Positions 27,171 to 48,266 of a stretch of 64,000 nucleotides of DNA are shown in pieces. The translations under genes and the position numbers were made by a program. The first letter of the stretch is position 1; each line of letters begins with the position of its first letter. The notes below the pieces were generated by a model. The model was not told where the DNA came from. It saw only the letters and a program-made list of their open reading frames with translations, and did not search any database. Source of the DNA: Erysipelotrichia bacterium (GTDB lineage: Bacteria > Bacillota_I > Bacilli_A > Erysipelotrichales > Erysipelotrichaceae); NCBI GenBank assembly GCA_018333955.1, contig JAGXSD010000001.1, forward strand, positions 1-64,000, read 5' to 3'.

Positions 27171-27437
27171 AAGACAAACGTTGAAAAGGATATGTGATTG
27201 TCAACCCCCTTCAAACTAGCGAGTTGAGACTTGGTGAAATGTCAACATGAAGGCTGTCAATTGTAACCCCTTGGAGTATGTCTTGAAACACACTGTGGAG
27301 TAAATGACATCGGAAGTCTTCCGTTACCACAAGGCACAAGTTTGTTTGAACTTGATGAAGTGACCTTTATGGTAATTAGGGTGGTACCGCGGAACTCAAC
27401 AGTTTTCGTCCCTTGTGGACTTAGACTGTTTTTTTTA
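27171..27437 (+). promoter_or_regulatory. T-box riboswitch, probably asparagine-specific
   Basis: The conserved T-box sequence AGGGTGGTACCGCGG is at 27378-27392 and a terminator follows. Upstream, stem I can be folded: AAGG/CCTT below and GATTG/CAATT above enclose a loop with GTAACCC, so the specifier reads AAC (Asn). CCTTCA/TGAAGG and GTTGA/TCAAC continue the stem. Uncharged tRNA-Asn would stabilise the antiterminator and switch on asnB. The 5' limit is uncertain; TACACT just before it may be the -10 box. Confidence 0.88.
27398..27437 (+). terminator. T-box terminator
   Basis: AACAGT / ACTGTT with an inner GTCC / GGAC stem is followed by eight T. It competes with the antiterminator that includes the T-box sequence. 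Confidence 0.88.
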
Positions 27438-47046: not shown

Positions 47047-47967
47047 ATGGATATTTATCAGTTGAAATACTTAGTGGCGATCATCGAATCCGATTATAAT
47101 ATTTCATCAGCTGCAAAAAAACTTCATGTTTCTCAACCTGCGTTAACTCAGGTGATCAAGAAATTTGAGACTGATGAAAAGATTGATTTATTTATCCGTC
47201 AACAAGGTCGACTTGCGGGACTTACCCCTCAAGGTGAATCTTTTTACACCAATGCTCTTAATGTGATTTATCATCATGAGCGTATGATGAAGGAACTCAG
47301 AGAACACTCGACTAAGGCACGAGGCAAGATTCGTATCGGCATTCCACCTCTAGTATTAACCGTGTTATTTACTGATATCTTGTCAAAGTTAGTGATTAGT
47401 AATCCTGATATTCAATTCGATATTATTGAAGAAGGTGCATTCGAGTTACAACGTTTGCTAAGACTTCAAGAAATCGATTTTGCGGTCATCTTACAACCCA
47501 CTGATTTAAACAGTATGCACTTTAAAGAAGAAGTGATTTTTGTCGAGGAAGTGTGTTGTTTCTTATCTAAAGATCATACCCTCGCAAAAATCAAAAACAC
47601 CATGGATTGGCATGACCTTAAAGATCAAAACTTAGCGATATTTTCAAGCACCTTCATGATCCATCATCAACTGATGCGAAAATTTGAGAGTTTAAATATT
47701 GTTCCTAAGATTGCCCTTATGTCCACTTCATGGGATTTCTTACTTGAATCCACGCTTAACTCCGATTTCATCACAGTCTTTCCTGGTCCCATAAGAAATC
47801 ACATTGTGAAAGATCGCATTAAAGAAATGAAGTTTACAGTACCAATGCCTTGGAAAGTGGTATTGACTTATCCCAATAAATCTCATTACAGTCGTATTGA
47901 AACATATACCCGAGATAGTATCTATCATTACTTTCAATCAAATCGACCCATTCTTCCAATACAATAG
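47047..47967 (+). CDS. LysR-family transcriptional regulator
   Basis: The 306-residue regulator has an N-terminal winged helix (YQLKYLVAIIESDYNISSAAKKLHVSQPALTQVIKKFE) and a type-2 periplasmic-binding-like effector domain from about residue 90 (GKIRIGIPPLV). A TGGAGG site precedes the ATG. It is transcribed away from the thiolase operon across a 175-bp shared region with a LysR-type palindrome, which is the usual arrangement for a regulator of the neighbouring operon. The effector might be acetoacetate, 3-hydroxybutyrate or an acyl-CoA; nothing in the sequence decides this. Confidence 0.92.
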   Translation: MDIYQLKYLVAIIESDYNISSAAKKLHVSQPALTQVIKKFETDEKIDLFIRQQGRLAGLTPQGESFYTNALNVIYHHERMMKELREHSTKARGKIRIGIPPLVLTVLFTDILSKLVISNPDIQFDIIEEGAFELQRLLRLQEIDFAVILQPTDLNSMHFKEEVIFVEEVCCFLSKDHTLAKIKNTMDWHDLKDQNLAIFSSTFMIHHQLMRKFESLNIVPKIALMSTSWDFLLESTLNSDFITVFPGPIRNHIVKDRIKEMKFTVPMPWKVVLTYPNKSHYSRIETYTRDSIYHYFQSNRPILPIQ

Positions 47968-47990
47968 CTTCCATTCCAGGAAGCTTTTTT
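47966..47990 (+). terminator. Intrinsic terminator after the lysR gene
   Basis: AGCTTCC / GGAAGCT with a 6-base loop and a run of T. The stem begins in the stop codon. Confidence 0.8.
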
Positions 47991-48019: not shown

Positions 48020-48048
48020 TTGCATTCTTTTTCATGATTTGTTACACT
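48020..48048 (+). promoter_or_regulatory. Promoter of the leader peptide and transporter operon
   Basis: TTGCAT and TACACT are spaced by 17 bases. The predicted transcript starts near 48055, just before the ribosome site of the leader peptide. Confidence 0.55.
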
Positions 48049-48074
48049 ACGAATCAAGAAAGGATATGTTGACT

Positions 48075-48128
48075 ATGACAAACCAAATTTCATTCCACGT
48101 GTCTTCTTATTACGGATATTATCATTAA
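48075..48128 (+). CDS. Tyrosine-rich leader peptide
   Basis: This 17-codon frame encodes MTNQISFHVSSYYGYYH. Four of the last six codons are for tyrosine (TAT TAC GGA TAT TAT). The ribosome site AAAGGA stands about ten bases before the ATG, right after a promoter, and the stop codon is followed within four bases by the first of several alternative hairpins. This is the layout of amino-acid operon leader peptides such as those of trp and phe operons in Proteobacteria. The peptide itself is probably unstable; the act of translating it would sense tyrosyl-tRNA. It is too short for usual gene finders. Function is inferred. Confidence 0.7.
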   Translation: MTNQISFHVSSYYGYYH

Positions 48129-48131
48129 CTA

Positions 48132-48239
48132 GGTTTATATCACATTGTAGATATAGACCACTTTATGTTGGAAATATCTACGATGACACCATACACAAGA
48201 ATTCTCTTTTATTGGCCACGCGTAGATGCGTGTTTTTTT
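48132..48239 (+). promoter_or_regulatory. Candidate tyrosine attenuator with alternative hairpins
   Basis: Four pairings can be drawn. A: 48132-48141 with 48150-48159 (10 bp). B: 48145-48154 with 48174-48183 (10 bp). C: 48175-48182 with 48221-48228 (8 bp). D, the terminator: CACGC 48217-48221 with GCGTG 48228-48232, then seven T. A excludes B, B excludes C, C excludes D. A ribosome stalled on the Tyr codons leaves A free, so C forms and D does not. A ribosome at the stop codon covers the 5' arm of A, so B and D form. Starvation for tyrosine would thus allow transcription. Confidence 0.65.
48217..48239 (+). terminator. Attenuator terminator
   Basis: CACGC / GCGTG with a 6-base loop GTAGAT is followed by seven T, 27 bases before the start of the binding-protein gene. 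Confidence 0.7.
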
Positions 48240-48266
48240 ATTTTATCCCCTATGAAAGGAACAACT

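Follow-up and report, generated by a model that had tools for sequence, protein, structure and literature searches.

Three forward-strand genes, arranged as an operon in the window (the whole stretch of DNA analysed, 64,000 nucleotides), encode a trpX-like substrate-binding protein (PF04392; 48267..49244), a trpY-like permease (PF02653; 49246..50130) and a trpZ-like ATPase (PF00005; 50135..50899). The region in front of them carries, on the same strand, a promoter-like site (TTGCAT-17 nt-TACACT, its -10 extended by a TG; 48020..48048), a Shine-Dalgarno sequence AAGGA (48060..48064) and a leader ORF of 17 codons, MTNQISFHVSSYYGYYH (48075..48128, stop codon TAA at 48126-48128), in which Tyr-Tyr-Gly-Tyr-Tyr (48108..48122; Tyr codons starting at 48108, 48111, 48117 and 48120) are the putative control codons. 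The promoter, ribosome site and 17-codon frame with Tyr codons given in the preliminary description were all read directly in the sequence at 48020-48128. Taken singly, the promoter hexamers scored no better than chance; most relatives nevertheless repeat the 17-nt spacer and have about 21–30 nt between the -10 and the ATG, and an AAGG-type Shine-Dalgarno sequence precedes most of their leaders. A further in-frame ATG lies upstream at 48066, and since it is only 1 nt from the Shine-Dalgarno sequence and is missing in congeners, 48075 is the likely start. The next gene upstream of the promoter-like site, close to it, codes for a LysR-type regulator (47047-47967) and has a terminator of its own (47966-47985); the end of this frame was also found upstream in the congeners L003 and L004.

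The stop codon is followed after 3 nt by stem A (48132-48141/48150-48159, 10 bp), and then by stem B (48143-48154/48174-48185, 12 contiguous bp), stem C, the presumptive antiterminator (48176-48182/48221-48227), and terminator D with its T7 tract (48217..48239, arms 48217-48221/48228-48232), the last also detected by a terminator scan. In the sequence, neighbouring helices of this chain share one arm, so that the mutually exclusive A-B-C-D series is present as first described, and all four helices covary among relatives. For the RNA after the stop codon the folding energy was -25.6 kcal/mol; dinucleotide shuffles gave -16.95 (sd 2.84), and none of the 200 was as stable, so the fold is stronger than chance would give.

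Orthologues of the binding protein were gathered from 196 genomes of the family Erysipelotrichaceae and their upstream regions were read. The same element, very divergent in sequence, was found 5' of trpX-like genes in several genera, and a covariance model built on stems A and D picked out 23 of the 273 family genomes searched, which fall in 6 of 60 genera. Further trpX-like genes in the family are without the element. The host genome (G000; 1.81 Mb, 99% complete according to the tool used) belongs to a genus whose members include the MAGs Erysipelotrichaceae bacterium UBA6182 and Erysipelothrix sp. CROMO_A_142. Outside the family, a second covariance model matched nothing in the order sample (245) or the class sample (395); the phylum sample (392) gave a single weak match (G766), which has no leader. 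All relatives of the element discussed below come from one family. Matches rejected because they showed no convincing aromatic leader were a minus-strand (antisense) match in L043, the match in G766 and those with E above 0.1.

When the upstream regions of relatives were aligned, a comparison that could have gone against the proposed attenuator, the ORF, its aromatic codons and its spacing were found to be kept alongside the hairpins, with covarying stems. In 21 representatives, the short ORF with its Shine-Dalgarno sequence, the aromatic codons and the distance from stop codon to stem A persist while the RNA sequence diverges. Tyr and Phe together account for 105 of the 168 terminal codons (the last 8 codons of 21 leaders), where dinucleotide shuffles give 55.7 (sd 4.5), and the other reading frames of these leaders hold fewer Tyr and Phe codons than the leader frame. 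The frame and every Tyr codon are retained in three congeners with closely related genes, and leaders in this genus end in YYGYYH. In other genera the ends are NYFYFIFC, AYYFYFYFR, QFYFYFS, YYYFYYS, YYYFIFS, SYYYYFS or SYYYS, and some leaders end in Phe runs (SFFFFFR/T/S, SFFFNFR, SFFFIFRN). The proposal that Tyr codons are the conserved feature therefore holds for the window and its congeners and not universally, as relatives carry Phe runs or Tyr/Phe mixtures.

Covariation was assessed in two ways. In 34 distinct sequences, whose A/D alignment was fitted to the structure, 94.3% of the positions of A and D formed standard pairs, compared with 32–46% when the partner was slid by 1–3 columns; 13 pairs showed double changes, with 69 double-change cells against 20 expected in shuffles. 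A plain MAFFT alignment of 17 sequences gave the same picture (92.6% paired; 34 double-change cells versus 11). The second approach, an arm-swap test, asked by permutation whether each sequence's own 5' and 3' segments, taken from fixed windows, pair better than they do with the segments of other sequences, using 21 representatives less than 85% alike. Permutations reaching the observed total numbered 0/20,000 for A, 1/20,000 for B, 0/20,000 for D and 0–3/50,000 for C with three window ends. Control swaps of non-neighbouring segments were not significant, except for s3 x s5, whose window holds part of C.

The distance between stop codon and stem A varies little. By established toeprint geometry, the leading edge of a ribosome usually lies about 12 nt past the start of the A-site codon. 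In 21/21 representatives the core of stem A starts between -1 and +3 nt relative to the end of the stop codon, and with a ribosome on that codon 7–11 nt of the 5' arm of A would be covered. By the same geometry, A would remain uncovered in the 21 representatives during a stall at one of the first two or more aromatic codons; in the window, codons 12, 13 and 15 are predicted stall positions of this kind. With the stop-codon footprint masked, constrained folding gave B and D at near 0.9–1.0 in 21/21, and with nothing masked and the RNA extended up to the loop of D, A and C dominated in 19/21 (L056_2764 was evenly split and L018 gave C). The proposal that a stall at Tyr codons leads to A and C, and arrival at the stop codon to B and D, was thus reproduced in silico. 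In full-length equilibrium folding, several members favour D even with A kept; because D competes this well at equilibrium, the on state would depend kinetically, as in other attenuators, on C forming before the 3' arm of D is made.

On these grounds, we consider it very probable that the element is a ribosome-mediated transcription attenuator that reads the supply of tyrosyl-tRNA and governs an ABC importer for aromatic amino acids. With charged tRNA-Tyr in good supply, the ribosome would translate all 17 codons and sit on the stop codon, covering the 5' arm of A; B would then form and block C, and terminator D would form (off). When charged tRNA-Tyr is short, the ribosome would wait at the Tyr codons and A would fold freely, blocking B, so that C could form and disrupt D and RNA polymerase would read into trpXYZ (on). 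We infer the stalling itself, and its effect on termination efficiency, from the arrangement and conservation of these parts.

The A-D chain first described is real and yet incomplete, as a further covarying helix, E, had been missed. In the window it pairs GTGTC(TTC) at 48099-48106 with (CGA)TGACAC at 48182-48189 (span 48099..48189), that is, the codons just before the aromatic run, and into its first codon, with bases 52–68 after the stop codon; its 3' arm overlaps the 5' arm of C in the region shared with the 3' arm of B. The swap test was reached by 0/50,000 permutations, unlike the aromatic codons themselves and other segments, which showed no covariation, and the location of E is consistent in the representatives. 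The pairing is re-formed by different bases, for example GTGTC/GACAC in the window, AACTAAGCT/GGCTTAGTT in L014, TCAGCAT/ATGCTGG in L010 and GCGAACT/GGTTCGT in L027. A ribosome that has stalled at the first aromatic codons would necessarily sit on the 5' arm of E, so that E could form only on an untranslated leader. As the 3' arm of E is transcribed earlier than the 3' arm of C, E would most simply stop C from forming and so give termination without translation. In the proposed scheme, E therefore probably enforces an off state on an untranslated leader by blocking C and letting D form. Equilibrium folding of the untranslated full-length RNA increased E and D. Before the 3' arm of D is made, C beats E at equilibrium in 18/21 untranslated leaders, so the putative role of E rests on folding order, and an assignment of the untranslated state from equilibrium folding alone was discarded for this reason.

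A hairpin around the leader start, P0 (48061..48105, arms 48061-48069/48097-48105), was supported by folding and by the swap test (0/50,000, 21 leaders). It extends in the leaders from at or just after the Shine-Dalgarno sequence to the codons preceding the aromatic run, with arms such as GTTGGG/CCCAAC and GTGCTGA/TCAGCA, and in the window P0 and E are competitors. P0 may serve as a pause hairpin or tune translation of the leader.

With respect to the substrate, the binding protein of the window scored 240.9 bits against the Trp-type model NF041285 and did not reach its curated cut-off of 390. In the tryptophan-binding protein SP1069, Gln-284 admits Trp (PMC6816091); the corresponding residue is Phe in the window protein and its closest congeners and Tyr in the other leader-linked proteins, none of which has Gln. 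Given this replacement and the missed TrpX equivalog cut-off, the window protein is unlikely to be a tryptophan importer. Its best match among solved structures is CD0873 of C. difficile (6HNI), which binds tyrosine and contacts the Tyr hydroxyl through Glu-263 (PMC6816091). At this place the window protein has another acidic residue, Asp, and it has Phe for Tyr-279; Glu is found at the Glu-263 place in the leader-linked proteins outside the closest congeners, those with Phe leaders included. As Phe-leader proteins also carry Glu, and the Ala that the two-residue pocket key of PMC6816091 would lead one to expect in them was not found, the pocket does not by itself confirm the reading of the codons. 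Tyrosine is nonetheless a likely substrate of the window protein. The statement that the leader would identify tyrosine as the substrate is supported for the window gene, short of proof, since the codons of relatives vary between Tyr and Phe.

Most genomes of genus g59 carry two or three binding-protein genes in tandem, one with a Phe-run leader and another with a Tyr-run leader. In the protein tree of this genus, the Phe-leader and Tyr-leader proteins form separate groups (the Phe side with modest support, 72/77 and 70% of bootstrap trees), so codon identity follows the paralogue. Where a third paralogue was seen (L019, L020, L060, L071, L072), it is a fast-evolving trpX without its own leader, located in the tandem cluster. 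These Phe-leader and Tyr-leader pairs offer a natural experiment on the way in which RNA control tracks the specificity of a transporter.

Searches of the host genome returned neither prephenate dehydratase (PF00800) nor prephenate dehydrogenase (PF02153), both of which were found in 14/14 control genomes. Auxotrophy for Phe and Tyr is therefore probable on the basis of gene content, and the missing families fit a need to import both amino acids. In G123 (genus g21), the same attenuator, with the leader MNTICFVSRFYFYF (FYFYF; near L065:1450-1605), lies 5' of a biosynthetic operon, aroB-aroC-aroE/aroK-aroF-aroA-tyrA (locus L075, G123:C48:36400-45000), in which aroB was called by model and the remaining genes by reading their translations.

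These targets, an aromatic amino acid importer and an aro-tyrA operon, bear on an alternative in which translation of the leader matters and the signal is something other than tyrosine charging, for instance translation slowing in general, or the nascent peptide arresting the ribosome as it does in drug-responsive leaders. In favour of this, stem A would stay free whatever had halted the ribosome before the last codons, and although the N-terminal part of the peptide varies, its aromatic end could act as an arrest motif. Runs such as FFFNF, YYGYY and FYFYF, however, share no fixed residue order, and a change of binding-protein paralogue is accompanied by a change of the run from Tyr to Phe; together with the aromatic targets, this makes the alternative improbable.

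Still less probable is a T-box, or another leader RNA that binds a tRNA or metabolite, with the short ORF being incidental. T-boxes are common in the host genome (15 matches, 13 above the cut-off) and occur before relatives of trpX, namely S. suis trpXYZ (PMC9382623), as the preliminary description had correctly stated, and the gene in L032. Yet neither a T-box sequence nor the TGGNACC antiterminator bulge is present at the leader site of the window. Of 4227 Rfam families, including T-box (RF00230) and the Trp, His, Phe, Leu and Thr leaders, none matched anywhere in the window at the gathering score, and a T-box at the leader site was rejected, as RF00230 gave no match and the whole-genome T-box search was also blank there. 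Conservation of the ORF, Shine-Dalgarno sequence, aromatic codons and stop-to-A spacing despite a diverging RNA sequence argues in the same direction. One of the 15 matches of the whole-genome search, a weaker one, lies elsewhere in the window, at 27172-27416. In L032, from another genus of the family, the T-box at 1159-1411 (73.8 bits, below the curated cut-off) precedes a trpX-like gene whose protein has Ala at the Glu-263 place. If tyrosyl-tRNA charging is read by translation as proposed, a T-box-rich genome would be using translation-coupled attenuation for the control of an importer.

A plain terminator behind a chance ORF, with the hairpins as remnants that do not switch, can hardly be entertained: neither the promoter hexamers nor equilibrium folding would tell decisively against it by themselves, whereas four mutually exclusive helices plus E covary and codon identity and spacing are conserved.

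Beyond the tyrosine attenuator itself, we favour, with rather less assurance, a wider reading, that of an attenuator specific to the Erysipelotrichaceae, with six covarying helices, in which Tyr and Phe have replaced one another in the leader codons as the duplicated binding proteins came to differ in specificity. It would have three states, being off while the leader is untranslated, on while the ribosome is stalled and off once translation is finished, and a complete operon for aromatic biosynthesis would also be under its control. If this is true, it would be the first tyrosine-codon attenuator, and importer substrates could be read from leader codons. The leader in any case yields a testable substrate prediction for a transporter family annotated by default as tryptophan importers.

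The his and trp leaders of E. coli and Salmonella combine control codons, a coupled ribosome, alternating hairpins and a terminator, and the element described here resembles them in each of these respects. We take the A-B-C-D chain to map onto B:C, C:D, D:E and E:F of the his leader, its last four alternatives, and helix E presumably stands in for the helix (1:2 or A:B) that provides them with termination without translation. There is no sequence relation to these leaders (no Rfam match), and the present element differs from them in its Tyr/Phe codons, importer target and occurrence in Bacillota, and in that helix E joins the leader codons to the antiterminator arm and not to the next segment. 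The attenuator logic appears to have been kept while both the sequence and the amino acid read have changed.

Within Bacillota, a Tyr leader cannot be called a new control type, as the preliminary description had suggested, because leader-peptide attenuation is already described there for His and Leu; the element is a variant and not a new kind. His-codon attenuators of his operons are reported for Erysipelotrichales, Peptostreptococcaceae and the B. cereus group (Ashniev et al. 2022, PMC9413887), in bacilli His leaders stand before hisS/hisZ (PMC2965389), and S. aureus has a Leu-rich attenuator peptide (PMC5794164). The Erysipelotrichales examples, as presented in the main text of PMC9413887, share with the window element the order of the host and the placement of leader codons directly before alternating hairpins; they involve His codons and his operons, and that main text describes neither Tyr/Phe leaders nor trpXYZ. 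In the open-access literature, we found no published leader-peptide attenuator with a Tyr control codon or for a trpXYZ importer, and the new part would be the Tyr/Phe specificity and the trpXYZ target. The aroR leader of aroF in Corynebacterium glutamicum, going by the account of Neshat 2014 cited in PMC11802643, likewise places an aromatic gene under a Phe-Tyr-Phe leader, which responds to Phe and not to Tyr; it resembles the FYFYF leader before aroB in G123 and differs from the window element in belonging to Actinobacteria and in having a biosynthetic target. The S. suis trpXYZ system has a homologous transporter and likewise senses tRNA charging to control premature termination, in contrast achieving this for tryptophan with a T-box and no leader peptide (PMC9382623).
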